64,000 nt of DNA from Streptomyces coffeae (lineage in GTDB: Bacteria; Actinomycetota; Actinomycetes; Streptomycetales; Streptomycetaceae). Below are positions 4,319-38,854 of this stretch, piece by piece. The position numbers and the translations under genes were made by a program. The stretch is from the NCBI RefSeq assembly GCF_016741875.1, contig NZ_JAERRF010000018.1, forward strand, positions 1 to 64,000. The letters run 5' to 3'. Below the pieces are notes generated by a model. The model did no database searches. It saw only the letters and a program-made list of their open reading frames with translations, and was not told the DNA's origin. Numbering within the stretch: position 1 is the stretch's first letter; the number at the start of each line of letters is the position of its first letter.

Positions 4319-4625
4319 CTCAGCTCATCTCAACGGCGGTTGCTGGAGCGGATATTCACCCGAGGACGGTTGTCCCTCACACGTCACGCGCGGGCTGGTG
4401 CGCGTGGCGGTGCGGTACGGCAGGGGTACGGCGTTTGCACGGGACCTGGCGCACGCTCGGCGTCCGCCCAGGTTTCGGCACATGTCCCCCGGTCGACGGC
4501 GTCGCAATGCCTGTCCACACCATCGCGGGGGACGGCTCAGCCGACATGGTGACTCCCACAGATCATGCGCTGAGTCTCATCGGACGATCACGGGAAAAAC
4601 CGTAGTCATGGGCAGAAGTTCGGAG
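4319..4625 (-). promoter_or_regulatory. Intergenic region upstream of the PKS gene
   Basis: A 307-bp gap lies between the stop of the upstream LAL regulator and the PKS start. No credible gene is present on either strand. It is long enough to carry a promoter for the PKS subunit and is a likely target of the neighbouring regulators. I saw no copy of the palindromic PAS-LuxR site known from polyene clusters. The promoter role is inferred from position only. Confidence 0.4.
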
Positions 4626-7600
4626 TCAGTCAGCGGTGTTGGTCCCGCCGCCACCGGTGTCGGGTCCGCCACCGTCGTGGCCACCGCCGTCGGCGCTCTC
4701 CCCGCTTTCGGAACTGTCGAGAAGAGCCAGCTCCGTGAGCTGAGCACGGCCGGCGATGCCGAACTTGCGGTACACCTTGGTGAGGTGCTTCTCCACGGCG
4801 CGGAGGCTGATCCCGAGTTCGGCCGCGATCTGCTGGTTTCCGCGACCGGCCGCCGCCAGCACTGCGACCCGGCGCTCGCCGGGGGTGAGTGCGGCGACGG
4901 TCGCGGTGGCCTCCCGTGGGCCGGGGGTCCGGGGAGGCCCAGGGTCGGCCACACCGGGAGGCTCCGGCGGATCGCTCGGTGTGAGGTCCGCGGCGAGAGT
5001 GGCCTGGGCCGAGGCGTCGGCCCGGTCGGTGGCGGCGGCGCGGTGGGGGCCACTGGCACGGTGGGGCACAGTGGCGCGGCGGGAGATCGCGGCATCGTCA
5101 CGAGCCGCAGCGCCCTGTTGAGCCACGGCGCCCTCAAGAGCCGTGGCACCGTCGTAGGCGCCGGTACTGCCCACGAGGCCGGTACCGCCCAAGACACCGG
5201 CACCGTCGTCAGAGACCGCGGCCCGGCCGACGGAGACGTCAGCACCGTCAGGGGCAGCAGTACGGTCGGAGTCAGCCGTGCGGCCGGAGCCGGACAGCTT
5301 GTGTCCGAGCTGCTCCTTCGCCTTGGCCAGTTCCCTCCGGTCGACGGAGTCCTTGAGGATCTCCACCGCGCGCCGCGCCAGCTCGGTCCCCGCCCGGCCT
5401 TCGGTTACCGCGGCCCAGACCCGCAACGAGCGTCCGACGGCACTGGGCGCGCCCCAGGCCGTCGCGAGCTCGTACTCGTGCGCGACGAGGGCCTGCGCGA
5501 GGTCGGGGCGTCCGAGCTGATGGTGCAGTTGGGCGGCCCAGGAACGCCAGGGCATGAGGGCGGGGTTCGTCCAGCCCCGCAGTTGGTGTTCCCGCCCGGC
5601 TTCCAGTAGATGGTCGAGTGCGGTGGCCACAGCCCCCATCCGCAAGGCGAGCATCCCGTCGACGAGGTGTCGGATGGCGGGCACGAGCAGGGCTTTGCCC
5701 TGGGCGCGGAATGCGGCGAGGGCGTGCCATGCGAGATCGGGTTGCCCGCCTTCGGCGATGATCAGGGCCAGCGCCTCGCAGCAGCGTCCCGTGACCTGGG
5801 TGAACTCGGGGTCGGCGTGCGTCAGGGCGTCAGCGGCGAGGAGCGCCGCTTCGCCGTGCCGGCCGCGGCGGGCCAGGAGGAAGGCCCTTTCCGCTCGGAC
5901 GAATTGAGTGCTTGTGCCCCGCTCACCGTGGGTGTGGAGGGCTGCTTCGGCCACCGATGCGAGCCAGGTCTCGGCCTGGTGGGGTTGGTCGGCGGCGAGC
6001 AGGGTGCGGGCCGCCAGGGGGACAGCCGTGCGCAGGTCCTGCACCTCCGGTGGTTGGGCGTGCAGTGCTTGGCCGGCCAGGGCGCCCGCCGCGCCGTGGT
6101 CAACTCCGGCGAGCATGCCGGCGTAGGCGAGCAGGGCGGACCGGTCCCGATCGGCGGCCGTCCGCAGTGGACGGGGCGTACCTTCGCGCCGGAATGTGCC
6201 AACAGTCTCGGTGAACCACCGGCGGTGTCCGAAGTGTGTGAAGCGCATACGCACGTCCAGCGCGAGCGCGGTCTCCCGTTCGGTGCCGTCCAGCAGCGCG
6301 GGATCGCCCGCTGCCGAGGCCGCTTCGGTGAGCTGGGTGGTGAGCCCCACGGGCGGGAGCTCGCAGGCCAGTACGGGGATGCGGGCGAGTTCATGGGTGC
6401 GTCGGGCCGGTGTCGCCAGTCGTGGCAGCGCCTGGGTCAGGCGCCGGATCCCGCTGACCGGGGCCACGGGCAGCTCGGCCTTGGCCAGGTCCACGAGCAG
6501 CTCCGCACGCTCGTGGCCCTGAGCGGCGGAGCCGAGCAGGGCTCGCAGCAGGTATCTCCTCGCCAGACCGAGGTCTCCGCCCGTGTACTCCGCCCACGCG
6601 GCGGTCCGGAGTACGTCGATCTGCCAGCCGCCCGGCGGATCGCCCATGGCCAGGATGTGTTTCGCCACCACCGGGGACGGGCTGCCCGCGTTGTGCAGGG
6701 TGCGGGCGGTTCTTGCGTGCCAGTGCCCCCGGGTCACGGCGTCGAGGGAGCCTTTGACGGCGTCGCCGATGGCGTGGTGGGCCCACCGCGGGTCCGGGCC
6801 GGTGGCGAGCAGACCGGCCGATACCAGCGTGTCCAGTGCGGCCGTGCCCTGCGCCACGGTCAGTCGGGCCAGAGAGTACAGCGTGTCGGTCCTCGGGCCG
6901 AGGAATGCCAGCGCGGTGGCGGTCTGGCGTGCTGCTTCGGGCAGTTCGGCCAGGGCCCGTACAGCGTGCCGGCCAAGTGCGGCGGGCCGTAGCGCCTGTA
7001 GGTGCTCGAGCATGGGCGGGCGTCGGGCTCGGCGGAGCTCGCTCAGCAGCGTGGCAAGGAACAGCGGTCTGCCACCCGACATCTCGACACAGGCGCGGAC
7101 GAGTGCCGGGTCCGGCTTGTCGAGGGCCTGGGAGACCATCGCGGACGCTCCGTCCGGCGACAGGGGCCGGAGTGCCACCTGGTCCGTGGCGCGGGCGAGG
7201 AGGTCTTTCAACGGTGGTGCGTGTGCCGCCGGGTCGCCCGGATGCGGTGACACGGCCACGATCACGACCGGTGCGTCGGAGAGCTTCTCGCCGATCAGCG
7301 TCAGCCAGCGCAGTGAGGCCGCGTCCGCCCAGCGCAGGTCGTCGCAGAGCAGCAGCAGCGGTTGGCGGCGGGCGAGGCCGAGCGTCAGGTCGCGCAGTCG
7401 GAGTGCTTCGTTCTCCTCCGTCGCGCCGACCGGCGGGTCGGCGTACGGATCCCTGCCGAGCAGCATGCGTCGGGCGAGCCCGAACACGGCTCCGCTCTCG
7501 GTACGGTCGCCCCCGGCGCGGAGCACCAGCGCCTCGGACGGCTGCGTCCGCATGGCGAGTTCGCCCAGCAGGGCCGACCGCCCGACTCCGAAGGGGCCCG

Positions 7601-7691
7601 ACACGGTCACGAGCGCGCCCTGCTCGTCGCGGGCGCTGCGATGCAGCGTCCGCTGTAGGAGGGCGAGCTCGCGCTCACGTTCGATCAGCAC
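4626..7691 (-). CDS. LuxR family transcriptional regulator, LAL type (large ATP-binding regulator)
   Basis: Probable pathway-specific regulator of the adjacent PKS, 1,021 aa. An N-terminal AAA/STAND ATPase-like region opens with a P-loop-like GPFGVGRS (32-39), in which Arg38 replaces the catalytic Lys, and has a Walker B-like LLLLCDDLRWAD near 115. A helical TPR-like middle follows. A C-terminal LuxR helix-turn-helix (LTPGERRVAVLAAAGRGNQQ through AVEKHLTKVYRKFGI) sits near 945-1000. Unusually, about 100 residues before the HTH are low complexity (Ala, Gly, Asp, Thr, Pro rich), and the tail after the HTH is Gly/Asp rich. The start is GTG at 7691 with AAAGGA just upstream. It lies 57 bp downstream of the PAS-LuxR gene on the same strand, so the two may be co-transcribed. 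Confidence 0.93.
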   Translation of the reverse strand: MLIERERELALLQRTLHRSARDEQGALVTVSGPFGVGRSALLGELAMRTQPSEALVLRAGGDRTESGAVFGLARRMLLGRDPYADPPVGATEENEALRLRDLTLGLARRQPLLLLCDDLRWADAASLRWLTLIGEKLSDAPVVIVAVSPHPGDPAAHAPPLKDLLARATDQVALRPLSPDGASAMVSQALDKPDPALVRACVEMSGGRPLFLATLLSELRRARRPPMLEHLQALRPAALGRHAVRALAELPEAARQTATALAFLGPRTDTLYSLARLTVAQGTAALDTLVSAGLLATGPDPRWAHHAIGDAVKGSLDAVTRGHWHARTARTLHNAGSPSPVVAKHILAMGDPPGGWQIDVLRTAAWAEYTGGDLGLARRYLLRALLGSAAQGHERAELLVDLAKAELPVAPVSGIRRLTQALPRLATPARRTHELARIPVLACELPPVGLTTQLTEAASAAGDPALLDGTERETALALDVRMRFTHFGHRRWFTETVGTFRREGTPRPLRTAADRDRSALLAYAGMLAGVDHGAAGALAGQALHAQPPEVQDLRTAVPLAARTLLAADQPHQAETWLASVAEAALHTHGERGTSTQFVRAERAFLLARRGRHGEAALLAADALTHADPEFTQVTGRCCEALALIIAEGGQPDLAWHALAAFRAQGKALLVPAIRHLVDGMLALRMGAVATALDHLLEAGREHQLRGWTNPALMPWRSWAAQLHHQLGRPDLAQALVAHEYELATAWGAPSAVGRSLRVWAAVTEGRAGTELARRAVEILKDSVDRRELAKAKEQLGHKLSGSGRTADSDRTAAPDGADVSVGRAAVSDDGAGVLGGTGLVGSTGAYDGATALEGAVAQQGAAARDDAAISRRATVPHRASGPHRAAATDRADASAQATLAADLTPSDPPEPPGVADPGPPRTPGPREATATVAALTPGERRVAVLAAAGRGNQQIAAELGISLRAVEKHLTKVYRKFGIAGRAQLTELALLDSSESGESADGGGHDGGGPDTGGGGTNTAD

Positions 7692-7748
7692 AAGTCCTTT
7701 CCCGGCTCCGGGTTTTCTGGAATCCGGCCCCGCGCAGCGGGCGGTGGA

Positions 7749-8456
7749 TTATGAGGATACGTACTCGGGGCATACGCGCGGCGGCCACTGGCCGACGGAA
7801 AAGACGCCCATGGAGTAGCCCTTCGATATCAGCGCGGGCCGGTTGGTGACCTTGAGTTTCCGTAGCAGGGACGTCACGTGGTATTCGACACCGCCGCGGC
7901 TGAGGAAGAGTTTCGCTGCGAGCTGCACCGTGGACTCGCCCGCGGCCACGCCTTCCAGGATCCGGGCATGCATGGGGCTGAACATCTTCCGGCGGTCAGT
8001 GATCATTTGTGGGCCGCTCTCGGCTTCCTGTGGCTGCACCAACACCATGATCGTGTCGACCCTGCCCACACTGCCGCGCACCGCGATGCCGGTGAGCTCA
8101 CCCTGGAAGATCAGGTCCTCGGCCCCCATCGCGACGATCTGGTCGGCGAAGCGCGCATTCTGCCCGTCGGCCAGGCGAATGAATTCATTTTTGAGCTTGC
8201 CCTGGACACTCGGATGCATGAATTCACATATATCGCGCCCTTGAATATCGCCTGAATGCCAACCGAACTGCTGCAAGAAGAGGTGGTTGGCCTCTTGGAT
8301 CCTCAGTTCGAGATCGAGGTTCGCCATGCAGAGTCCGGACTGCTCGAAGAGCGACCAATAAATGTCGCGATACTGCTCCGAGCAGCGATCCCGAGTTATC
8401 TCCGGGATAATTACTTTTGATGCGAGACTGGTGTTACTCACGAGTTTGTCGACCAT
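7749..8456 (-). CDS. PAS-LuxR family regulator (PimM/NysRIV/AmphRIV/FscRI-like)
   Basis: 235-aa DNA-binding regulator with an N-terminal PAS sensor fold (about 30-140, including EANHLFLQQFGWHSGDIQGR) and a C-terminal LuxR-type HTH (about 165-220, FSPMHARILEGVAAGEST then VEYHVTSLLRKLKV). This two-domain layout and size match the activators of polyene macrolide clusters (PimM, NysRIV, AmphRIV, FscRI). The start is ATG at 8456, with GAGGAA close upstream. The N-terminal third uses more AT-ending codons (AAA, ATT, TTT) than the neighbouring genes. It precedes a LAL gene and then the PKS gene, all in the same direction. Family assignment is strong; the polyene link is inference from family and neighbours. 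Confidence 0.9.
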   Translation of the reverse strand: MVDKLVSNTSLASKVIIPEITRDRCSEQYRDIYWSLFEQSGLCMANLDLELRIQEANHLFLQQFGWHSGDIQGRDICEFMHPSVQGKLKNEFIRLADGQNARFADQIVAMGAEDLIFQGELTGIAVRGSVGRVDTIMVLVQPQEAESGPQMITDRRKMFSPMHARILEGVAAGESTVQLAAKLFLSRGGVEYHVTSLLRKLKVTNRPALISKGYSMGVFSVGQWPPRVCPEYVSS

Positions 8457-8574
8457 TTCCTCGGCTCCCCACAGGCCGATGATCCAGCAGCGACCGACTT
8501 CTTTGCTCCAAGAAGTCCCTCCCCGATTTTCATCGTCTATAGATATCGATCAGAAGTCAAGCTCAGCGGACTGA

Positions 8575-8588
8575 GGGAAACTTTTCCC
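8575..8588. promoter_or_regulatory. Palindrome GGGAAA-CT-TTTCCC upstream of PAS-LuxR gene
   Basis: Perfect 6+2+6 inverted repeat about 120 bp upstream of the PAS-LuxR start, in a 562-bp intergenic region. Its core resembles the GGGA..TCCC half-sites of PAS-LuxR operators but lacks the flanking CT/AG bases and has different spacing. It is a plausible operator for one of the island's regulators; the binding protein is unknown. Confidence 0.45.
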
Positions 8589-8630
8589 GCTTAATACTGC
8601 GGGCTTCGGACCGTACGGTTCGGTGCCGCA

Positions 8631-8668
8631 CGGTACGGTTCCTCGCGGTACGGTTCCTCGCGGTACGG
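8631..8668. repeat. Tandem 15-bp repeat in PAS-LuxR promoter region
   Basis: The unit CGGTACGGTTCCTCG occurs twice exactly (8631-8645, 8646-8660) and begins a third time (8661-8668). A looser related stretch starts near 8611. The rest of the gap (8457-9018) holds no gene I can support. The repeat may be a multi-site binding region or simple slippage. Confidence 0.8.
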
Positions 8669-9018
8669 GCGCCGCTGACGTACGGAAATGCCGACTCGGT
8701 GCGGACGCGACGCCGCCCCCCATGCAGCGGGTGATACCGCAGGTCGACCGCCATCTGACGGCACACGAAACACCGGGCGAATATGCCGCCTTTGACATTT
8801 TCTTTATTGTCTACGCGCATAGCTAGAATTGCTGTGCGACGAAACCCGGTCCTTCCTCATACAGGGAGAGCCGTCCCGCTACCCGAGAGCGAGAGACCCA
8901 TCGTGCGACCAAAGGCCGCCCGGGGCAGAAGGCTGTCCCTTCCTCGCCAGTTCCACGAGGCTTTCTTCCTGCCCCGGAAGGCGCCTGCCGGAAAGGCTGT
9001 GCCTCGGACCGGCGCTGC

Positions 9019-11814
9019 TCATGCGCTACGGCTCTCACCCGCGAGCGCTGCGGCGAGCGCGGACCGGCCCTCGATACCGAGTTTCCGGTAGGAACGCGTC
9101 AGGTGCTTCTCGACCGCACGCTTACTGATCTCCAGCCGGTCGGCAATCTCCTGGTTGCTGTGACCCCGTGCGGCGAATTCCGCAACAGTGGCCTCGCCAG
9201 GGGTGAGCACGGATCTGACCATCGGGGCCGAGGCAGCCGCGGCAGCACCGACCAGTCCTCTGTCCCGAGCGCCCGATCCGGACCTCTGCACCTGCTCGGC
9301 CAGCCGTCGGCCGCGGGTCAGCAGCCGTTCGCCCTCGGCCGGCGCGGTCGTATGCTGCAAGCGTTTCCCGAGCGCGATCAGAGCCCGGGACAGTTCCAGC
9401 GTGGTGCCCACGTCCTGGAGCACCTCGACCGCCTGCCGCATCCATACGGTCCCTTGTGGTCCGTCGGTCACGGTCCCGCGCACCCGCAACGCCCTGCCGA
9501 GCACCGTCGGAGCGCCCCAGGCCTCCGCACGCCGGTGAGTGTCCTCGGCGAGCTCGGCCGCGTCCGCGGTCCTGCCCAGCCGGTGGTGGATCAGCGCCGC
9601 CGAGACCTGCCACGGTGACACGGCCGGGTTGAGCCATCCGGCCCGGTCGAGCAGACGACCGCAGTCGAGGAACTGTGCCCGCGCCGCCGGGAGGTCCCCG
9701 CGCGCCGCCGCCAGTTCGCCCCGCAGATGCCGCCGCAGGGCGAACATCAGCAGGTCGCCGTAGGGGGCCGTCATCTCCACCGCTTGCCCGGCCAGCGTGA
9801 GGTCCCGCTGCTCGACCGCGACCGCGCCCAGCGAGAAAGCCGCCGTCTCCATCGACTCCGGCACATCCCGGTCGGCCAGCGCCACCGCGCGCAGCGCGCT
9901 CTCCCGCGCCGTCGCAACCTGACCGCGGCCGAGAAGCACCAGCCCGCTTTGTGCTTCGGCGATCGCGATGAGTGTCGGGGGGCCCTGTCGCCGGACGTGG
10001 GCCAGCGCCGCATCGAGCCAGGACGCGGCGGCGTCTCCGGCGTCTGCGGCGAACAGCACCCAGGGAAGGGTCAGCAGAGCGGAGCTGAGTTGCAGTGAGT
10101 TGGTCGGTTGATGGTCGAGTACCTGACGTGCCATCCTCACCACGTCCCGGCAGCCGACCTGCCCGCTCAGCACCGCGGAGTGCAGGAGCACCATGCGCAG
10201 TTCCCGCTCTCCGATGCCGACCGGGGTGGTGTCCCCGAGTGCCATCAGCCGTTCTCCGGCCGACGCCAGGACCGCGGGGTCCTGGATCCCCGCGTAGCGC
10301 GAGCGCGCCTCCATTCGCAGGGCCAGCTCCCGGTCGTCACCGTGCAGGGTCTCGGGGGCTCCGTACCGCCCGGAGACCTCGCGGACCAGTTCGGCGAGTT
10401 GCGTGTCGCGGCCCACCACGTGCGGCGGTGCCCAGGAGAGCACCGCGGCGCGTCTGCGGTGGTCCGGCATCAGCCGCGCGGCCTGTGCGAGGTGCCGGAC
10501 CGCCGAGTCCGATTCGGCTTCCAGCTCGGCGACGGCCAGCTCGGCGAGTTGCTCGGCGCGTTTGCGGCCGTCGACGCTCAGGTCCAGCAGGGCCTGGCGC
10601 AGATAGCGAACGGCATCCTCGGGTGCGCCCCGTCTCCGCGCGGCCACCGCCGCCGCCCTGAGCTGAGCGATCTCCCAGCGGTCGGGCAGTTCGGCAACGT
10701 GCACCAACTGCGCCGCGATCTCCTCCGGCTCGGCGCCGCACTCCTCCAGCAGGGCCGCGGCGGACCGGTGCAGACGCGAGTACTCCTCCGCTCCGAGGGA
10801 CTCCGCGATCGCCTGGGTCATGGCTGGGTCGCGGAAGGCGAGTCTGCCGGATCCGCCGCGCACCAGGGCTTTCCGGAGCGCCGCCTGCGCGGCTCGGCTG
10901 TCCTGCCGGCTCACCCCGCTCAGCCGCTCGACCAGCTCTTCGGTCGCCTGGTCCGCCAGCACCACCACCGCCTTGGCGAAGGCTGCGATGGCAGGATCGC
11001 GCCGCAGCCGCAGCAGCATCCGCTCAGCCTGGAGCGACGCCCCGAGGTCACGGACCCGCGCCACCTCCGCCGCTGTTCCGCGCAACCGCTGCCCCACGGC
11101 ACGGTCGAGCAGCACACGGAGCTCTTTCGGGTTGCCGCCGGTCACATCGTGGCAGGCCAGGGCAAACGCGGTGGCGCAGCCGTCACCCAGCCACGAGGAC
11201 AGCAGCTTCGCCGTCGCCTCCTTGGGCAGCGGTTCCGCGCGCAGCCGATGGGTCGCCGCGCCCATGATCTCGAGGAGGTGTGGGTCCCGCGTGCCCTCCC
11301 AGTCGTGCACCACCACACCGATGAGCACGCGCGTACCGTTCAGCCGCGCGGCCAGGAAGGCCAGCGCGCGCAGCGATGGTTCGTCCGCCCAGTGCAGGTC
11401 GTCGATCACGAGCACTACAGTCTGGTTGCCGCTGAGACCGACCATCAGGATGTACAGACCGTAGAGCACCGGGGTGAGCACATCGACGCCGATGACCTCG
11501 TGCACTCCGCTCCCGTCCTCCACGGCGCCGAGCAGGGCCCGCGAAGGGGCGGGCACCACGTCCTCCGGCGAGGTGAGCAGGGGCAGCGCCCATTGGCGTA
11601 CGACGCCCAGCGGCAGGTCACGCTCGCCCTGTGCGCCGCTGGACCGCAGCACGCACGCGCCGGAGTCCTCGGCGAGCTGTGCCAGCTCACGCAGCAAGAC
11701 CGTCGTGCCCGCCCCGGTCTCGCCCTCCAGCAGCAGCAGCGCTCCCTCACCGGACTCGGCCTGCCGCAAGGCCTGGCGCAGGACGGTCAGTTCGGATTCC
11801 CGCTGCACGAGCAT
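9019..11814 (-). CDS. LuxR family transcriptional regulator, LAL type
   Basis: Second LAL regulator, 931 aa. The N-terminal ATPase-like domain has a degenerate P-loop GETGAGTT (31-38), with Thr37 where Lys is expected, and a Walker B-like VLVIDDLHWADE. A long helical repeat middle leads to a C-terminal LuxR HTH (LTPGEATVAEFAARGHSNQE ... AVEKHLTRSYRKLGI) ending at 9019. The open frame extends far upstream (to 13080), but that part is antisense-free shadow of the next gene. ATG at 11814 is the true start: it lies 5 bp after the stop of the preceding LAL gene, with GGAAGG in front, so translation is probably coupled. It forms a three-gene set with the two LAL genes upstream. Confidence 0.92.
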   Translation of the reverse strand: MLVQRESELTVLRQALRQAESGEGALLLLEGETGAGTTVLLRELAQLAEDSGACVLRSSGAQGERDLPLGVVRQWALPLLTSPEDVVPAPSRALLGAVEDGSGVHEVIGVDVLTPVLYGLYILMVGLSGNQTVVLVIDDLHWADEPSLRALAFLAARLNGTRVLIGVVVHDWEGTRDPHLLEIMGAATHRLRAEPLPKEATAKLLSSWLGDGCATAFALACHDVTGGNPKELRVLLDRAVGQRLRGTAAEVARVRDLGASLQAERMLLRLRRDPAIAAFAKAVVVLADQATEELVERLSGVSRQDSRAAQAALRKALVRGGSGRLAFRDPAMTQAIAESLGAEEYSRLHRSAAALLEECGAEPEEIAAQLVHVAELPDRWEIAQLRAAAVAARRRGAPEDAVRYLRQALLDLSVDGRKRAEQLAELAVAELEAESDSAVRHLAQAARLMPDHRRRAAVLSWAPPHVVGRDTQLAELVREVSGRYGAPETLHGDDRELALRMEARSRYAGIQDPAVLASAGERLMALGDTTPVGIGERELRMVLLHSAVLSGQVGCRDVVRMARQVLDHQPTNSLQLSSALLTLPWVLFAADAGDAAASWLDAALAHVRRQGPPTLIAIAEAQSGLVLLGRGQVATARESALRAVALADRDVPESMETAAFSLGAVAVEQRDLTLAGQAVEMTAPYGDLLMFALRRHLRGELAAARGDLPAARAQFLDCGRLLDRAGWLNPAVSPWQVSAALIHHRLGRTADAAELAEDTHRRAEAWGAPTVLGRALRVRGTVTDGPQGTVWMRQAVEVLQDVGTTLELSRALIALGKRLQHTTAPAEGERLLTRGRRLAEQVQRSGSGARDRGLVGAAAAASAPMVRSVLTPGEATVAEFAARGHSNQEIADRLEISKRAVEKHLTRSYRKLGIEGRSALAAALAGESRSA

Positions 11815-11819
11815 GGGTC

Positions 11820-14531
11820 TCACACCTTCCGGACCGCGGGGGCGAAGCGGGCCGCCAGCTCTGTTCTGCCCCGGACGCCGAGCTTGCGGTACACCTTGGT
11901 CAGTCGCAGCTCCACGGTCCGGGTGGCGACGCCGAGTTCGTCGGCGATCTCCCGGTTGGCCAGTCCGCTCAGGGCGAGTTGCAGGACGTCCCACTCGGGT
12001 GGTGCCAGCTCGGCGAGGGGCAGGGGCTCCGGCTCTTCCATCGTCTCCGGTGCGGCGGGGAGCTCGACGCCGAACGCGCTCAGCATGTCCGTGAGCCGTG
12101 CGTGGGCTCGCTCGAGAGCCCCGCCGGTGCCCCATCCGTGCAGCAGCGCACGCTCCTCCGCGAGCAGCCGGGCGGCGCTCTCGGGAGCGCCGAGCATCCG
12201 GTGGGCCAACGCGGCCGTCGACCGCCAGTGCACGAGCATCGGATTGCGCCACCGTCGAGCACGCAGCAGCCTGCCGCACTCGTCCAGGTACACCAGGGCA
12301 CGTTCGGGGTCGCCGGTCACGAGGCAGAGCTCGCCCTTCGCGTAGCACAGCAGTCCCCAGCCGATGCCCTGGTCCGCCCCCGCGGCGAGCGGGCGGGCCG
12401 CGGCCCGTTGCGCGTCGTCCAGCCTCCCGCAACGGAGTTCGGTGACGATCTCGCCGGCCACGAAGCGCGCCAGCAGCATCGGATGCCAGGAGCTCAGGGG
12501 CAGCTCCCGAGCGGCGGCGGCCAGATCCTGCCGTGCCACCTCGGCGCCGTGGACACCCAGCGCGACGCGCGCCCGATGGAGCAGTGCCTGTGCGGCGCTC
12601 GCGCGGGCGTTGCGTCTGCGCGCCTCGACCACGACGGCGTCCAGTCCGGCCAGGGCCGCTTCCTGGTCGTCGGTGCACCGCAGTGCGCTGGATGCCGCGA
12701 TCCGGCACATCAGCGGAAGGTCGGTGTACGCGGTGAGCGCGGCCCTGGCCAGCTTCCGTGCCCGGTCGGGCTCCACGGCCCGGGTGGCCAACTGCCAGGC
12801 GAGCACCGCGGCTTGAGCCGGGTCCGCCGGGCGCTCGATGGGCGGGGGCAACGGGGCCACCGGGCCACGCGGTTCCGGGCCGGACTCTTCCTGTGCGAGC
12901 CGGCCCAGAGCGAGCAGCGGGGAGCGGGTCTCTTCCGCCATGGAGCCGTTCCAAGCCCGGTAGGCGTCCGCGATCGTTCGGTGTGCGGTCGCCGCGTCGC
13001 CGCGGCTCAGCAGCAGGTCGGCCGCCTCGACGACGGACGGCAAGACCTCGCGGTGCGGGTAGCGCACCAGGACTTGGCACAGCCTGCCGTCGCTGGCCTG
13101 CGGCGCCGTCGCGACCTCGACCGAGGCGAGGCGGTTGAGCAGGCGCGCCCGGTCGGCATCGGGCATGGGCTCACGCAGGGCGCGGCGCAGCGCCGCGACC
13201 GCGGAGTCCGGCCTGCCTTGCCGCAGGCGGTACATGGACGCCTCGGCCAGCACCTCGGGGGCCCAGGGCAGGCCGGTCGCGGGTGCGGCGCCGAGAAGGC
13301 CGGCGACGGTGTCGGCGTCGGCACCCACCTTCCAGCCGAGTTCCGCCGCCCGCAGGCACAACGTGTTCCGCTCGACGGCGTCCATGCCCGCGAGCACATC
13401 CTCGGGGAGCGAGGAGCAGGCCGGCCGGGGGGCGTCGGGGCCGGTCACCAGCCCGGCGGCGAGCAGTATGTCGAGTGCGCGCTCCAGGCTGGTCGTACCC
13501 AAGCCGGTGAGGGAACCGACGATCTCGTACTCGAAGGTGGCGCCTCCTCCGAGGCACAGCACGCGCAGCAACGCCAGCGCGTCGGCGGGCAGGCCCCGGA
13601 CGGCCCGGGCGTTGCGCTCGGACCAGGCACTGCGGGCCGCCAGTGTCAGCTCCCCGACCCGTTCGGGGGTCAGCGGCAGGTCCCGGGCGGCGAAGTGTTC
13701 GGCCACGGCGTGCAGCACGGCGGGGCGGCCCATGGTCAGATCGGTCGCCGTGGCGGCCACCGATGCGTCGACCTCCCGTCCCACCACCGCTGTGAGGAGC
13801 CTTTGGGAATCCTGTGGAGTCAGTGGCGGCAGCGGGAGTTCGTGAACGGCGGCGCAGCCCGTGTTCACGATGCAGTCCTCGCCGAGGTGGCCGGAGAGCG
13901 GGCCGTGGGACGCCCCGATGAGGAGCACCGGGGCGTCCTGGACCCGGCGGGTCATGGCGGCGAACCAGTGCAGCGACCACACGTCGGCCCACTGGACGTC
14001 GTCGACGGCGAGGGTCAGGGGGCGGTCCGCGGCGAGTGCGAGGAACTCGTCGCACAGCAGCGCTATCAAGGCCTCGGTGCTGCCGCCGCGGAGGCAGATG
14101 GCCGCCAGTTCGACCACGCGTGGCGGCGGGCGGAGTGCGATGAACAGGTGGCTCATGGCGGCGTACGGGAGCTGCGACTCGACCGGTGAGCAGCGGACGT
14201 GGCCGACGGCGCTTCCGGCGGCCCGCGCCCGGGCCACCGCCCGGGTGATCAGCGCGCTGCGTCCGGCGCCGAGCGGACCGGTCAGGCCGAGGACGCCCGA
14301 CTCGCCGGCGGTGAGCGTCTCGATCACTTCGTCGAGCCGGGTCAGGACGGTGTCGCGGCCCACGAGTTGGGTGTCGCGGGATGCGGGGCTCACCGGGGCA
14401 GCCGCCCGGCACCGGTCCCCGCGGCTCGGTGGGCTTCCGCTTCGGCTCCGAGCCGCCTGTGGCCGTTGCGCGCCGCCACCTCGTACCCCCTTGCCACCGG
14501 TCGCTCCCCGCCGGAAGCGATGCTTTTCCAC
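11820..14531 (-). CDS. LuxR family transcriptional regulator, LAL type
   Basis: Third LAL regulator, up to 903 aa. From the GTG at 14531, residues 1-46 are Arg/Gly/Pro rich and unlike the family. A second GTG at 14393 (VSPASRDTQLVGRD) begins where homology-like sequence starts and may be the real start. The P-loop is GPLGAGRS (85-92) with Arg91 in place of Lys; Walker B-like is LAVDDVQWAD. The HTH near the C-terminus reads LAPPEWDVLQLALSGLANRE ... TVELRLTKVYRKLGV. It follows the next LAL gene by 49 bp (or 187 bp with the later start) and precedes another by 5 bp, so the three appear to form an operon. Confidence 0.9.
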   Translation of the reverse strand: MEKHRFRRGATGGKGVRGGGAQRPQAARSRSGSPPSRGDRCRAAAPVSPASRDTQLVGRDTVLTRLDEVIETLTAGESGVLGLTGPLGAGRSALITRAVARARAAGSAVGHVRCSPVESQLPYAAMSHLFIALRPPPRVVELAAICLRGGSTEALIALLCDEFLALAADRPLTLAVDDVQWADVWSLHWFAAMTRRVQDAPVLLIGASHGPLSGHLGEDCIVNTGCAAVHELPLPPLTPQDSQRLLTAVVGREVDASVAATATDLTMGRPAVLHAVAEHFAARDLPLTPERVGELTLAARSAWSERNARAVRGLPADALALLRVLCLGGGATFEYEIVGSLTGLGTTSLERALDILLAAGLVTGPDAPRPACSSLPEDVLAGMDAVERNTLCLRAAELGWKVGADADTVAGLLGAAPATGLPWAPEVLAEASMYRLRQGRPDSAVAALRRALREPMPDADRARLLNRLASVEVATAPQASDGRLCQVLVRYPHREVLPSVVEAADLLLSRGDAATAHRTIADAYRAWNGSMAEETRSPLLALGRLAQEESGPEPRGPVAPLPPPIERPADPAQAAVLAWQLATRAVEPDRARKLARAALTAYTDLPLMCRIAASSALRCTDDQEAALAGLDAVVVEARRRNARASAAQALLHRARVALGVHGAEVARQDLAAAARELPLSSWHPMLLARFVAGEIVTELRCGRLDDAQRAAARPLAAGADQGIGWGLLCYAKGELCLVTGDPERALVYLDECGRLLRARRWRNPMLVHWRSTAALAHRMLGAPESAARLLAEERALLHGWGTGGALERAHARLTDMLSAFGVELPAAPETMEEPEPLPLAELAPPEWDVLQLALSGLANREIADELGVATRTVELRLTKVYRKLGVRGRTELAARFAPAVRKV

Positions 14532-14580
14532 ACTACAACTCCGCTGGTCACAGCCCGAAGTCGGCGTTGGAACGGTCTCA

Positions 14581-17406
14581 TCAAACTCTCATCAGCGCGG
14601 CAGGCAGCTCCAGGCGGCTCCGGATGCCGAGCTTCCGGTACACGCTGGTGAGGTGGAACTCAACGGTCCGCTGGGTGAGGAACAGTGACTCGGCTATCTC
14701 CCTGTTGGTCGCTCCCGCGGCGGCCTGCTCGGCGACCCGGCGCTCGCTGCCGCTCAGCGCGTCGGCGGGCGAGTCGGTGCCGTGCCACAACCGCCCGCCG
14801 GCTTCGGTCAGCGCGGGCAGGGACTGGTCCAGCTGCTGCTTGTCCCGGCACAGCACGGCCAGGTCGATCGAGCGGCGCAGCCGTTCGCGAGCGCCCTCGG
14901 CGTCGCCCCGGCGGTGCAGTCTGCGGCCGAGCAGGTACTCCGCCCGGGACTGCTGAAGTCTGCCGGGGGAGTCCGCGAGCATGTTCACCGCGTCGATGAG
15001 CAGGTCGATCCCGGAGTCTCCCGCGGTCAGCACACCGCGCGCCATGCGGATCATGCCCAGCGCCCGGCAGGTTCCCCAGCGTCGTACGGGCTCCTCCACC
15101 CGTTCGAGGAGATCCAGCCCTTCGTGGGCGCGGCCGAGTCCGGCGAGCGCCTCCGCCGCATCGAGCCACCAGGGGGCCAGTACGGGGTTGTCGATGCCGG
15201 CCTCGGCCAGGCTGTCGCCGCAGTGGAGAAGGTGGGTGAGCGCGCCCTCCAGGTCTCCCAGCGCAGCCCGGGTCCGTGCCCGCGCCATCGTGAAGTGGTG
15301 GTATTCGATGGCGAACCGGTCCAGTCGTGGCCGGGTGACCAGGTCGAGCAGATCCTGCGCCCGCTTCGGCTCTCCCCGGCGGATCAGCGCCCCCGCCAGG
15401 GCGGTCTGCGGCATCACCACGGTCGGGGCCCAGGCTTCCTGCACCATCACGTCGAAGGCGCTCTGCGCGTCGGACAGCGCCTCTCCCACATTGCCCGCCC
15501 AGAGGTGGACCTCGGCGCGCACGCTGGTGCTGAGGACGTACGTCCACGCCTCACCGCGGCCCTGCGCGTGCTCGATCAGGTCGGTGAGGGCGCGCAGCGG
15601 GAGGTCGATCTCGTCGGCGAGGAAGAGCGAGAGGCTGGAACCCAGCACCGCCCATCCGCCGGGTGCGATCTCGCCGATGTCCAGGACCTTGCGCGCCTGG
15701 GCGGCGACCTCCGGGGCGGGCCTGGCCTTCAGGGTGCCCAGCGAGGACAGCATGGCCAGCAGCTGGCGTTCCTCGGGGGTGTCTCCCGGCGGCGGAACGT
15801 AGTCGGCGAACCGCCGGCTCACCGCTTCCACGGTGGACTTCTCGTCGAGGCCGGAGAGCAGGTACACGGACTCCACGAGCGTGCGCAGGGCGCGGTCCGC
15901 CGGGTCGGGGTTCTCGCCCAGCTCGGCGTCGATGGTGTCGAGCGTCTCCCCCACCAACGCGAAGGCCCGCAGCGAATTCTGCGCCCCCAGCGAGGTCAGG
16001 GCGTACTGCACCACCAACTGGCTTCGGATCCGTGGATCGGATACCAGGCCGAGCGCGCGCTCCAGGTGTTCGAGGCCCTTGGCCGGGTCGCTCTGTGCGA
16101 GCACCTTGCCGGAGGCGGCCAGCAGGCCCACGTCGTCCGGGTCGTGTTTGAGCGCGTGGGAGAGGTAGCGCGCGGCGACACCGGGCGCGCCCCGGTGCTC
16201 CGCGCTCGCGGCTGCCGCGCGCAGCACACCGACCATCCACGGCGTCGGGTCGCCGGGCAGCCGCATCAGCTGGACAGCGATTTCCTCGGCCGGGCGGCCG
16301 GCGTCGTTGAGCAGCCGCGCGGCGCGCCGGCGCAGGGCCACGAGTTCCTCGGCGGGGGTCGCGTCGAGCACCGCCTGCCGGATCAGGTCGTGTGCGTAGT
16401 CGACGCCGTCGCCGAGCAGCAGGTCCTGGGCGCGCAGCGCCTCCACCGCGATTCCCGCCGGGCCCGGTCGGGTGCCGGCGAGGGCCGCGGTCATCTCGAT
16501 GCTCTCGCCGCCCAGCACCGCGATCGCCTTGGCGACGGCGTAGGCGTCCTCGGGGAGCCGGTCGAGCTGAGACCGCGTGACCACGCACCGCCCGAGCTCG
16601 TCGAGCAGGGCCACCTGTTCGACGCCGGGCGGAATCGCCTCGGCGCGCAGCCGGGTGACGACCCGCTGGAGCAGGAACGGGCTTCCGCCGGTGATGTCCG
16701 TGCAGGTGGCGACGAATGCCGGGGCGGTCTCGACGCCGAACGCGGAGTGCAGGACGTCGCCGACGGCATCGGCGGTCAGCGGAGGCAGATCCAGGGTCAG
16801 ACAGCCCAGGGCGTCACTGATCTCGTCGAGCAGTTCGGGCTGATCAGCGCCGGTGCGCTGGGTCATCACCACCAGGAGCGGAAGGTCCTCTGCACGGCGG
16901 AGCAGAAATCCCAGCCAGCGCAGGGAGGTCTCGTCGCACCACTGGATGTCGTCGATGGCGAGCACCACCAGGCCGTCGGCGCTGAGCCCGGCGGTCAGCC
17001 AGTGCAGGCCGTACATGACCGCGTACGCGTCGGCTGGGCCGGTCTCCTCCGTATGCGGCAGGAGCGCGGGGAGGGCGAGGCGGGCGCTGCCGCTGAGCAG
17101 AGGGGAGCTCGCGGGGCCGTCCCCGGTGCGCCACAACGGCTCGAACAAGCCACGGACGGTTTCGTACCCCGTTGAACGGCCTTCCGGACACGTGACGGAC
17201 AGCACCGTCTTCGCGAGGGGTTCGAGTTCGTTGAGCACGGCGGAGAGCAGTCGGGTCTTGCCGATACCGGCCGGGCCGCGGACCAGCACCGCTTGACCCG
17301 CGCCGGGCGACGCCCGGCGGGCGCGTTCGACGAGAAGGGACAATTCCCAGTCCCGGCCGATGAGTTCCGTGGCTGTTTGCGACTGCACGCTGCTATGAGC
17401 GGCCAT
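14581..17406 (-). CDS. LuxR family transcriptional regulator, LAL type
   Basis: Fourth LAL regulator, 941 aa and first gene of the three-LAL operon. It is the only one of the four with a canonical Walker A motif, GPAGIGKT (44-51), plus Walker B VVLAIDDIQWCDE. The helical middle is followed by an HTH (LSGSERRVAEQAAAGATNRE ... TVEFHLTSVYRKLGI). An in-frame ATG exists at 17427, but only the ATG at 17406 has a proper ribosome site (AGGAG five bases upstream), so I take 17406. It probably regulates the PKS cluster and possibly the other LAL genes. Confidence 0.93.
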   Translation of the reverse strand: MAAHSSVQSQTATELIGRDWELSLLVERARRASPGAGQAVLVRGPAGIGKTRLLSAVLNELEPLAKTVLSVTCPEGRSTGYETVRGLFEPLWRTGDGPASSPLLSGSARLALPALLPHTEETGPADAYAVMYGLHWLTAGLSADGLVVLAIDDIQWCDETSLRWLGFLLRRAEDLPLLVVMTQRTGADQPELLDEISDALGCLTLDLPPLTADAVGDVLHSAFGVETAPAFVATCTDITGGSPFLLQRVVTRLRAEAIPPGVEQVALLDELGRCVVTRSQLDRLPEDAYAVAKAIAVLGGESIEMTAALAGTRPGPAGIAVEALRAQDLLLGDGVDYAHDLIRQAVLDATPAEELVALRRRAARLLNDAGRPAEEIAVQLMRLPGDPTPWMVGVLRAAAASAEHRGAPGVAARYLSHALKHDPDDVGLLAASGKVLAQSDPAKGLEHLERALGLVSDPRIRSQLVVQYALTSLGAQNSLRAFALVGETLDTIDAELGENPDPADRALRTLVESVYLLSGLDEKSTVEAVSRRFADYVPPPGDTPEERQLLAMLSSLGTLKARPAPEVAAQARKVLDIGEIAPGGWAVLGSSLSLFLADEIDLPLRALTDLIEHAQGRGEAWTYVLSTSVRAEVHLWAGNVGEALSDAQSAFDVMVQEAWAPTVVMPQTALAGALIRRGEPKRAQDLLDLVTRPRLDRFAIEYHHFTMARARTRAALGDLEGALTHLLHCGDSLAEAGIDNPVLAPWWLDAAEALAGLGRAHEGLDLLERVEEPVRRWGTCRALGMIRMARGVLTAGDSGIDLLIDAVNMLADSPGRLQQSRAEYLLGRRLHRRGDAEGARERLRRSIDLAVLCRDKQQLDQSLPALTEAGGRLWHGTDSPADALSGSERRVAEQAAAGATNREIAESLFLTQRTVEFHLTSVYRKLGIRSRLELPAALMRV

Positions 17407-18263: not shown

Positions 18264-18710
18264 TCAGGCGTCGATCCAGTTGTGTGCCTGGACCAGTTCC
18301 AGCACGCGCTTGCGTACCTGGACGAGCTGGGCCGCGGTGAGCGACGGCGCCGCTTCGAGCAGCGCCTCGGTCAGCTCGTTCCGGAACTCAGCCTGGGACA
18401 GGACGTCGCACATCAGGTCCTCGTCGGAATCCGCGGCGACCGCCCGTTCCGCCCCCGCGGCAACCGGAGTCGGCCGCCGTACGACGACCGCCCGCGCGGG
18501 CTGCTGCTCCAACATCTGCACATCGCTGGCCTTGAGCCCGCGCTCCCCCACCTCCGCCGTGTACTCCACCCGGAGTCCACTGCGGAACAGATGCTTCTCG
18601 TCCCTCAAGTCATTGGCATGTACGAAGACATCCTCACCGCCGGAATCGGGGGTGATAAAGCCATATCCGCGCACGTCGTCAAAGCGCACCACGGTACCTG
18701 TAGCCACCAC
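18264..18710 (-). CDS. Cold-shock-domain protein with C-terminal extension
   Basis: 148-aa nucleic-acid-binding protein. Residues 1-67 form a cold-shock domain: GTVVRFDDVRGYGFI contains RNP1 (GYGFI) and VFVHANDL contains RNP2. Classical Csp proteins are about 67 aa, so the remaining 80 residues are an extension, acidic then helical (about 95-148). It probably acts as an RNA chaperone or single-strand-binding regulator. The start is one of two adjacent GTG codons at 18710/18707, with GGGGAAGC upstream. It sits between the LAL operon and the phosphopantetheinyl transferase, same strand. A role in the PKS cluster is possible but not shown by the sequence. Confidence 0.85.
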   Translation of the reverse strand: MVATGTVVRFDDVRGYGFITPDSGGEDVFVHANDLRDEKHLFRSGLRVEYTAEVGERGLKASDVQMLEQQPARAVVVRRPTPVAAGAERAVAADSDEDLMCDVLSQAEFRNELTEALLEAAPSLTAAQLVQVRKRVLELVQAHNWIDA

Positions 18711-18907: not shown

Positions 18908-19666
18908 TCACCGCGTGTGCCATGAAGAGCCATCCAGACCTGGACCCATGGGAGCGTCGGCGGGATCGGTGCGGGGAACGGCGGCGGGTACCGTGACCGT
19001 GGTCATCACCAGGCCCGACCGTACGGCCCAGCGCCCCTCGAATCCGTTCAGGACGCGGTCACCGAGCTGCCATCCGGGTACCAGAAGCCGTGCGGCGAAG
19101 GTTTCGCCGACCGGGTCGAAGGTGAGGAAGGCATCCTCGAACCCCAGCGGGCGCCCGGTCAGCGGAAACCACGCCTTGTACACCGCCTCTTTGGCGCTGA
19201 ACAGCAGGGTGTCCCAGGGGAGCGGCGGCGATCCGGGGCGGTACAGCGGCAGCCCGGCGCGCTCATCGGGCAGTGCCACGGCCTCCAACACCCCGTCCGG
19301 AAGCGGCTTCGCGGGCTCGGCGTCGATGCCGAGGGCGAGCAGCTCCGTGCTGGGCGCGACGACAGCGGCGGCATACCCCTCGCAGTGGGTGATCGCGCCG
19401 GTGATGCCGGACGGCCATCGGGGCTCGCCGCGCGGCCCGGGAAGGATCGGTACGGGCGGCGAGCCGATACCGGCCAGTGCCCGGCGGGCGCACCAGCGGC
19501 CGGCGGCGAACTCCCGCTTCCGCTTGTCGACCGCATGCGCCACGAGGTCCTCTTCCGGGGGCAGAAGCGCACCGGCCGGTGGTTGGCCGAAGGTCTCGGC
19601 CACCGAGACGGTGTCCGGCAGCAACGCGCCGAGCAACGCCGTCCCGCTTGCGGTTTCCCCTGCCAT
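18908..19666 (-). CDS. 4'-phosphopantetheinyl transferase (EntD/Sfp superfamily)
   Basis: About 252 aa. It transfers the phosphopantetheine arm of CoA to a Ser of carrier proteins, making apo-ACP or PCP active. Diagnostic motifs are present: R-rich CoA-binding KRKREFAAGRWCARRAL, then GEPRWPSGITGAITH, LGIDAEPA with the metal-binding Asp/Glu, and FSAKEAVYKAWFP. GTG at 19684 is possible, but ATG at 19666 has GGAG eight bases upstream and is preferred. With a modular PKS 14 kb away on the same strand it is the obvious candidate for loading that PKS, though such enzymes often serve several pathways. Confidence 0.92.
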   Translation of the reverse strand: MAGETASGTALLGALLPDTVSVAETFGQPPAGALLPPEEDLVAHAVDKRKREFAAGRWCARRALAGIGSPPVPILPGPRGEPRWPSGITGAITHCEGYAAAVVAPSTELLALGIDAEPAKPLPDGVLEAVALPDERAGLPLYRPGSPPLPWDTLLFSAKEAVYKAWFPLTGRPLGFEDAFLTFDPVGETFAARLLVPGWQLGDRVLNGFEGRWAVRSGLVMTTVTVPAAVPRTDPADAPMGPGLDGSSWHTR

Positions 19667-20247
19667 CGCCGCTGCTCCAGCCACTTGCCCTGACCATGTG
19701 CCGAACCCGCACGACCCTCGCTGTCCCGTGCAAGGGCGAGCCTAGGCCCCGTTCGCCGTCCGGCCCACCGAAAGGGGCATGGGACGCCTGGGCCCGAGAA
19801 AATGACCAGACTTCCGTGGAGAACGAGACCGTCGTGCGCTCGACGGACCGGCCGCGCAGCCGATGTGCATGCACCCGCCCGATGCCGTACGGCCGCCTCG
19901 CAGCCCACTGATCACATAGTGGTCCGCCTCGGGCACGGTGAATGTCGGCGCTTGCTCCAGCGAGGTGCCCCCGCCGCCTTGATCGGGACAGACGCAGTAG
20001 CTCGGCCGACGGAACCTTCGGGTAGCGGGCTGCCGGATCGGTCAGGGTGCGCACATCGGACGCGGTCGTGGGCGCGTAGCCATGCTCTCCGATGCCGTGC
20101 AGTCCACGGCTGACAACGTTGAGCGGGTCGTGAACATGGCTGGTGCAGCCCCCGGGCCCCGGCGACACCCCCGGCACGGACACCGCATCGTACGGGACTG
20201 AGGGCGAGCCACCGTGAGGAGGACAGCCGCCCCGCACAGCCCGCCGA

Positions 20248-38658: not shown

Positions 38659-38854
38659 CCGCCTCTCGGTCTCAGTCAGCGCGACGCCGCCGCAGCGTTG
38701 TCGTCCGTCCACACCGAGCGGTATCGGCGGGGCACCTACTGCTCGGCAGCGTGTCCAACACCTACTGCCCGGGTGAAGCCCGATGAAGCCAATTCTGCCG
38801 AAATCACTAGTCCCTCGCCGCCGAACGAGCCCGAGCCAGCATTGCTGGCGTATG

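Follow-up and report, generated by a model that had tools for sequence, protein, structure and literature searches.

A conserved polyene-type regulator set with a rarer fourth LAL beside a modular polyketide synthase gene in Streptomyces coffeae

Four LAL genes and one PAS-LuxR gene of Streptomyces coffeae, arranged on the minus strand next to a modular polyketide synthase (PKS) gene, represent a real, well-conserved regulator set of the polyene type that includes a rarer fourth LAL. The explanation that best accounts for the data, to which we give a probability of about 0.7, is that the genes of this island are cluster-situated regulators belonging to a large polyene-type locus, where they would act in the cascade proposed below; we infer both the product of the locus and the hierarchy of the regulators from sequence. 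The island is found at one border of a locus of unusual size that appears to comprise two separate polyketide assembly lines.

The window, that is, the whole stretch of 64,000 nucleotides analysed, comprises bases 1-64000 of a 185,958-bp contig (C89 of the window genome, G000) in a draft genome of 9.9 Mb. On its minus strand, LAL-D (14581..17406, 941 aa), LAL-C (11820..14393, 857 aa, with a possible alternative upstream start at 14531), LAL-B (9019..11814, 931 aa), the PAS-LuxR gene (7749..8456, 235 aa) and LAL-A (4626..7691, 1021 aa) follow one another and are succeeded by a modular PKS that runs off the contig end. The sequence-only reading of this stretch, four LALs and one PAS-LuxR regulator on one strand upstream of a PKS subunit, was borne out, since the five regulator genes and the PKS are all open frames on the minus strand and Pfam detects AAA_16 and a C-terminal GerE (LuxR) HTH in all four LALs (857-1021 aa), as well as PAS_4 and GerE in the fifth regulator. 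The features that define the LAL class, namely an N-terminal AAA ATPase, a C-terminal LuxR HTH and a length of about 900 aa, are thus present in 4/4 by Pfam. LAL-B, LAL-C and LAL-D were assigned from Pfam, tree and a P-loop reading, and LAL-A from all of these together with an alignment. The PAS-LuxR start was placed at 8456 and not at 8327, which would give a 192-aa protein, because the alignment with six of its seven nearest relatives sets in at residue 4 to 9. Only 5 bp separate LAL-C from LAL-B, 57 bp the PAS-LuxR gene from LAL-A and 187 bp LAL-D from LAL-C; wider gaps precede LAL-D, the PAS-LuxR gene (562 bp) and the PKS (307 bp). Immediately upstream of the island are genes for a cold-shock-domain protein (18264-18710) and for a 4'-phosphopantetheinyl transferase (18908..19684, minus strand; Pfam 4PPT_N and ACPS). 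The latter, a possible PKS-activating enzyme, is a candidate member of the cluster; it is without a match at E 1e-20 in the S. himastatinicus and strain G231 regions compared. A phosphopantetheinyl transferase at 53% identity also occurs near a regulator set in S. celluloflavus L131.

The composition of the island recurs widely. When 392 genomes of the genus were searched for PAS-LuxR (E up to 1e-30), 79 of them had matches, window genome included; seven other genomes constitute a close group with 67-80% identity, and the remainder reach at most 52%. One scan of the contigs of named genomes yielded 279 confirmed PAS-LuxR relatives, and the best 80, from 79 loci, were retained. In these 79 loci, where LAL classes were assigned by best BLAST hit and 10-kb flanks and short contigs conceal some genes, LAL-B, C and D occur without LAL-A in 41, A to D in 3, B and D in 16, B and C in 7, B only in 1 and none in 11. 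All three of B, C and D are therefore present in 44/79, and the exact one-strand order D-C-B-PAS is found in 33 loci and D-C-B-PAS-A in 3. S. himastatinicus carries all five regulators in identical order, with 61-80% protein identity. The arrangement is not a matter of chance, because D-C-B-PAS-A recurs in S. himastatinicus and D-C-B-PAS in 33 of the 79 loci drawn from the best 80 of 279 relatives. For a tree, 97 LALs were taken from the window and from 33 of the 79 loci. Built by a quick method with SH-aLRT support and no bootstrap, it places the C, D and A rows each in one group (SH-aLRT 100); LAL-B is divided into two groups because two Amycolatopsis LALs join LAL-A. Gene order and tree both indicate that D, C and B are three old LAL orthologue groups which, with the PAS-LuxR regulator, form a conserved core.

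The PKS gene at the contig end (2..4318, minus strand) is the 5' part of a modular subunit in which Pfam recognizes a docking region, KS, AT, DH and the start of the KR region; the gene is cut because window base 1, which falls within it, is also where the contig starts. Its AT motif is HAFH, which we take to denote the malonyl type. It is an extension subunit rather than a loading module, and the predicted first module of a polyene-type subunit. The gene product is 72% identical to that of G204:C2:764702-760485 in S. himastatinicus, the first gene after the regulators there, and its best match in strain G231 is the start of an eight-module gene (G231:C1:1169985-1165813, 57%). The proposal that the flanking PKS is of the polyene type is upheld by this orthology to the first gene of a polyene-type line in two strains. 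In G231, the line consists of a Ser-type loading KS-AT-ACP followed by genes of 2, 4, 8, 3 and 3 modules (20 modules), the order of use being our reading of the sequence; it contains one run of four and one of three DH-KR modules, and one gene ends in a thioesterase. The PKS gene that adjoins the island is thus the orthologue of one that opens a line rich in DH-KR modules. Contigs C226, C195, C203, C204 and C89 of the window genome match the G231 line piecewise, and C203 carries both a thioesterase and the loading module, whose KS motif reads DTASSS; the window PKS is probably continuous with these polyene-line contigs, which are joined by orthology alone. The whole genome gives 144 matches to the ketosynthase C-terminal domain family, and such PKS richness may account for the broken assembly. 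About 38 kb of the 240 kb compared in S. himastatinicus reads N.

The polyene-type line is followed first by a tailoring block and then by a second PKS, which has a loading module to itself, in the window genome (contig C204, which joins both PKS lines), in S. himastatinicus and in G231. The block contains two glycosyltransferases, GMC and DAO oxidoreductases, a DegT aminotransferase, a SARP-LAL gene and an ABC transporter. The closest counterpart of the locus is that of S. himastatinicus ATCC 53653, where about 580-778 kb of the main contig hold the five regulators in order, the orthologous polyene-type PKS, the tailoring block and the second PKS; it differs in that the regulators are 61-80% identical, its LAL-A is without the long linker and its record is partly N. 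The second PKS has 14 modules in both G231 and Streptomyces sp. DH24, 7 of them DH-ER-KR; its loading module is KS-AT-ACP in the window genome versus AT-ACP in G231 and DH24, and Pfam confirms a thioesterase both in G231 and on contig C186 of the window genome. In DH24, a single 314-kb contig unites the regulators with P450s, PhyH and the second PKS; it also holds the greater part of the tailoring block and ends inside the SARP-LAL gene. This SARP-LAL, of the PimR type and the sixth regulator of the locus, lies outside the window and between the two lines (G000:C204:17967-20858); its orthologues are 63% identical in S. himastatinicus and 54% in G231, with that of DH24 cut by the contig end. 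The regulators' contig of DH24 also bears another PKS (G416:C86:139500-181564) with KS and ACP matches and an AT match in one separate frame only. An arrangement like that of G231, with the core regulators and a portion of the second PKS together, is seen in S. chartreusis NBC_00851 (NZ_CP108841.1:1121691-1160293), where it occupies the end of a linear plasmid of 1.16 Mb and is cut by the record end. The window genome has, in addition, a second regulator set at about 64281-73008 of G000:C111, with at least two LAL matches and a PAS-LuxR, and a third PAS-LuxR gene at G000:C2:34774-35370.

Since the second PKS line is conserved beside the polyene line, the locus is more than a polyene cluster. 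The two lines might nevertheless be unrelated neighbours, the island serving an ordinary polyene cluster that happens to lie next to another cluster. We regard this as rather doubtful: each line does have its own loading module and thioesterase, and the regulators switch sides between species, but both lines and the tailoring block hold their order in three genomes (that of the window, where C204 joins them, S. himastatinicus and G231), and at 71-78% identity the GMC gene of the block is found in 7/12 of the named genomes with the nearest PAS-LuxR (at least 57%), as well as in the window genome. Counted over the 18 other genomes searched, it is present at this level in 7, all of which have the close PAS-LuxR type. 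Weaker GMC matches (43-47%) occur in four genomes, the window genome among them. The gene is absent at 71-78% from S. minutiscleroticus, S. lanatus, S. bungoensis, Amycolatopsis jejuensis and Saccharopolyspora NFXS83, all with a close PAS-LuxR, and the core set consequently serves several cluster types. No polyene supercluster with two lines and one regulator set was found in the literature searched, mostly below full-text depth, and searches on the polyenes of S. himastatinicus or of the other carriers, which covered few subscription papers, gave no description of the locus.

Candidate control sites lie before both the PKS and the PAS-LuxR gene. A putative operator, ACTACGGTTTTTCCCGT (4590..4606, minus strand), is located 271 bp before the PKS start and is conserved in the orthologous upstream regions. 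With at most one mismatch, CTANGGTTTTTCCCGT occurs at four places in the 2.54 Mb scanned, two of which are the same S. himastatinicus site, and all precede the eight-module PKS gene or its orthologue in the window, S. himastatinicus and G231. The 10-bp core GGTTTTTCCC occurs at 11 places in the 2.54 Mb, some of them elsewhere. The 12-mer GGTTTTTCCCGT is the longest word common to the three PKS upstream regions (lengths 8 to 12 tried); among 300 single-base shuffles, one attained a longest shared word of 10. Given that the promoters sharing the motif are orthologous, common descent without function may account for it. The motif is kept before the G231 eight-module gene though the regulators are about 200 kb away.

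The distribution of this motif bears on a further alternative, in which the main target of the regulators is not the polyene line but the second, reducing one, or else both. This alternative is consistent with the position of the core in G231, DH24 and S. chartreusis NBC_00851, where it neighbours the second line, separated from it by two P450s and a PhyH gene (the P450s adjoining the regulators in G231 and DH24), and with a single copy of the 10-bp core in the second-line region of S. himastatinicus (G204:C2:580242). We consider it unlikely, however, as the island abuts the polyene-type line in the window genome and S. himastatinicus, the motif precedes the eight-module gene of the polyene line in 3/3 genomes where this is readable, and the DH24 region that carries the second line lacks the 10-bp core.

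Before the PAS-LuxR gene, a candidate promoter, CTTGACT...TATAGACGAT (8532..8561, minus strand), shows TTGAC in 11 of 13 aligned upstream regions, and ACCGAACC is unchanged in every one of the 13; the copies of the region from Amycolatopsis and Saccharopolyspora differ. An array of direct repeats, CGTACCG/CGAACCG (8611..8667, minus strand), with four heptamers at a 15-bp period in the window and another spacing in most relatives, is a candidate activator site. The pimaricin pair PimR-PimM offers a possible parallel, in that a PimR-type SARP-LAL is also present in the tailoring block of the window genome and repeats also precede PAS-LuxR, but the repeats here are CGTACCG at 15 bp and the SARP-LAL gene is far from PAS-LuxR. 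PimR has been described to bind CGGCAAG heptamers with 4-bp spacers (PMC3367932), so the repeats found here are at most a relative of the PimR site. A PimM consensus site at the island promoters was rejected: the window shows no excess of CTVGGGAWWTCCCBAG (4 hits, with 2-3 mismatches, versus 3.25 expected), no hit falls in 4319-4625 or 8457-9018 or near any regulator or PKS promoter, and the one intergenic hit, at 38795, is far from the island.

The fourth LAL had been proposed to be possibly new. This needs qualifying, because LAL-A also exists in S. himastatinicus and in two Saccharopolyspora, and a Pseudonocardia plasmid carries five LALs; by these comparisons LAL-A is rare, not unique. Its clade in the tree of 97 LALs has four members, from the window, S. 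himastatinicus, Saccharopolyspora NFXS83 and Saccharopolyspora HNM0986. A recent duplication of LAL-B was rejected as its source, the two types being 29-32% identical and LAL-A forming a separate supported clade common to Pseudonocardiaceae; the tree rather suggests an accessory paralogue from the LAL-B side. LAL-A is probably co-transcribed with PAS-LuxR, as its gene starts 57 bp after the latter. No LAL-A-level match was obtained genome-wide in DH24, S. minutiscleroticus, S. lanatus, S. bungoensis and A. jejuensis, nor in the regions examined of G231 and S. bluensis, and LAL-A would accordingly be dispensable in those relatives. From about residue 800 to 928, the window copy has a low-complexity linker rich in Ala, Gly, Asp and Pro before its HTH, absent from the three other LAL-A; 107 window residues, some in the C-terminal tail, stand opposite gaps in these three proteins. 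In the five-regulator islands of Saccharopolyspora (loci L064 and L074), sugar-PTS-like genes, read by eye, lie between PAS-LuxR and LAL-A; no PKS domain was detected within 180 kb around the island in either strain. The literature, searched mostly below full-text depth, yielded no cluster with four LALs or four LuxR regulators that matches the locus.

These observations also weigh on the idea that LAL-A, as a paralogue that is redundant or in decay, has no separate role, which would make the island in effect an ordinary set of three LALs and PAS-LuxR. The relatives that keep the core and show no LAL-A-level match, the replaced Walker A lysine and the long linker found only in the window copy among four would agree with decay; nonetheless, the 1021-aa frame is intact and retains its HTH, and the order D-C-B-PAS-A is retained in a second family. 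Moreover, LAL-A is about 63-64% identical between the window and S. himastatinicus (64% for the copy), approximately as conserved as LAL-B (63%) and LAL-C (61%) between the same genomes, and we judge a loss of role to be improbable.

Polyene clusters offer the nearest parallels for the set as a whole. NysRI-RIV, AmphRI-RIV, FscRI-RIV and TtmRI-RIV are each described as three LALs and one PAS-LuxR within a polyene cluster (PMC9774167, section 11). Compared by gene content and not by alignment, the island resembles them in LAL-D, LAL-C, LAL-B and PAS-LuxR, to which it adds LAL-A, and it is without the PimM consensus site. Other polyene clusters diverge further: the NPP cluster has six regulators (NppRI-RVI), three LALs and PAS-LuxR among them (as summarized in PMC9774167), and the reedsmycin cluster does without LALs, its five regulators RdmACDEF including PAS-LuxR, an XRE regulator and a two-component set (PMC6006980). 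The D-C-B-PAS genes of A. jejuensis precede an AmphDIII-like gene and a PKS whose six modules read DH-KR, KR, KR (methylmalonyl-type AT), KR, KR, KR, a pattern that agrees with the description of AmphI (PMC8944477, section 2); section 4.1 of the same source names A. jejuensis among related, predicted polyene clusters. An AmphDI-type glycosyltransferase, searched with the selvamicin-plasmid query, is present in 2/11 genomes. As this type is absent from the whole window genome at E 1e-60 and AmphDIII was not found in those of its contigs examined, the locus was not classed as that of a mycosaminylated polyene.

The plasmid pLS2-1 (NZ_CP013855) of the ant symbiont Pseudonocardia sp. HH130630-07, a strain that we take to be a selvamicin producer, carries PAS-LuxR and five LALs. 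It lies outside the 79 loci and was placed by a second tree with a simpler model, in which three of its LALs group with D, C and B and the two extra ones fall outside the LAL-A clade. These orthologues and PAS-LuxR are found beside P450, PhyH, glycosyltransferase and PKS genes; the plasmid differs from the window in its five LALs and in its AmphDI-type glycosyltransferase. It probably carries the selvamicin cluster: one selvamicin cluster is reported to sit on a plasmid (PMC8944477, section 9.2; PMC7793712), and Apterostigma symbionts are reported to encode the cluster (PMC5183585), a source that fits the link between strain and product. The strain number HH130630-07 does not appear in the accessible portions of the papers searched for this link.

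The attribution to a polyene-type set therefore needs a qualification. LAL-B, C, D and PAS-LuxR do recur with polyene-type clusters, and to that extent the attribution stands; such regulators are also met outside polyenes, the salinomycin cluster being described with two LALs and PAS-LuxR (PMC9774167). That the set governs another type of polyketide, as there, is very unlikely, for although the lack of an AmphDI-type transferase in the window genome would fit, the orthologous G231 line contains DH-KR runs of four and then three modules, and a Ser-type loading KS is present in that line and on contig C203.

The four LALs of the window split at the Walker A motif. LAL-D (GPAGIGKT) ends in GKT and is the only one in the window that matches the consensus GX4GK[S/T], LAL-A (GPFGVGRS) and LAL-C (GPLGAGRS) ending in GRS and LAL-B (GETGAGTT) in GTT; many relatives of LAL-B and LAL-C also deviate. 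Among 188 LAL hits in the 79 loci (best 80 of 279 relatives), with 20 partial ones skipped and classes set by best hit, not tree, the lysine is present in 50/51 LAL-D, the 51st reading GARGSGK, one residue short, in 0/48 LAL-C and in 25/64 LAL-B. It is found in 0/3 LAL-A besides the window and in both Amycolatopsis sisters of LAL-A. Because LAL-B retains the lysine in 25 of 64, the split is strict only for C and D. A change of Lys to Arg has been reported to abolish the activity of the LAL MilR (PMC5015266), and LAL-D may be the nucleotide-driven input. In candicidin, two LALs are described to head the network and FscRI to act on the structural genes (PMC9774167, section 11), an outline that agrees with our proposal, whereas the identity of each LAL does not.

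In the cascade that we favour, LAL-D, the sole LAL here with an intact nucleotide-binding lysine, would be the ATP-dependent input. In LAL-A, B and C, Arg or Thr replaces this lysine, and these three would work without a normal ATP cycle, e.g., as partners of LAL-D. LAL-D with C and B, perhaps together with the PimR-like SARP-LAL, would switch on the promoter of PAS-LuxR and LAL-A at the conserved repeats, and PAS-LuxR, possibly aided by LAL-A, would then activate the PKS through the ACTACGGTTTTTCCCGT site. The locus so controlled would comprise the polyene-type line (20 modules in G231) and the second, reducing line (14 modules in G231).

A broader reading, which we advance only tentatively, is that a single co-regulated supercluster, about 200 kb in size, yields both a polyene and a second, largely reduced polyketide of 14 modules, the two acting in synergy or being joined in one conjugate. 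Its control would merge the LAL network of large polyenes with the switch from SARP-LAL to PAS-LuxR of small polyenes, LAL-D being the only nucleotide-driven switch of the four LALs and the others ATP-cycle-deficient partners. The GMC oxidase and the DegT aminotransferase may put an amino group on an already attached sugar, replacing the missing mycosamine pathway.

If true, two assembly lines under one regulator set would amount to a polyene supercluster of a kind not met in the literature searched. What is most interesting goes just beyond the observation first made, namely that the PKS lines come as a pair and that the LALs split at Walker A. Polyene regulators serve to raise yields and to wake silent antifungal clusters, and to the question of which LAL senses and which assists, the split of the Walker A lysine, kept throughout in LAL-D and never seen in LAL-C, would give a direct, testable answer.
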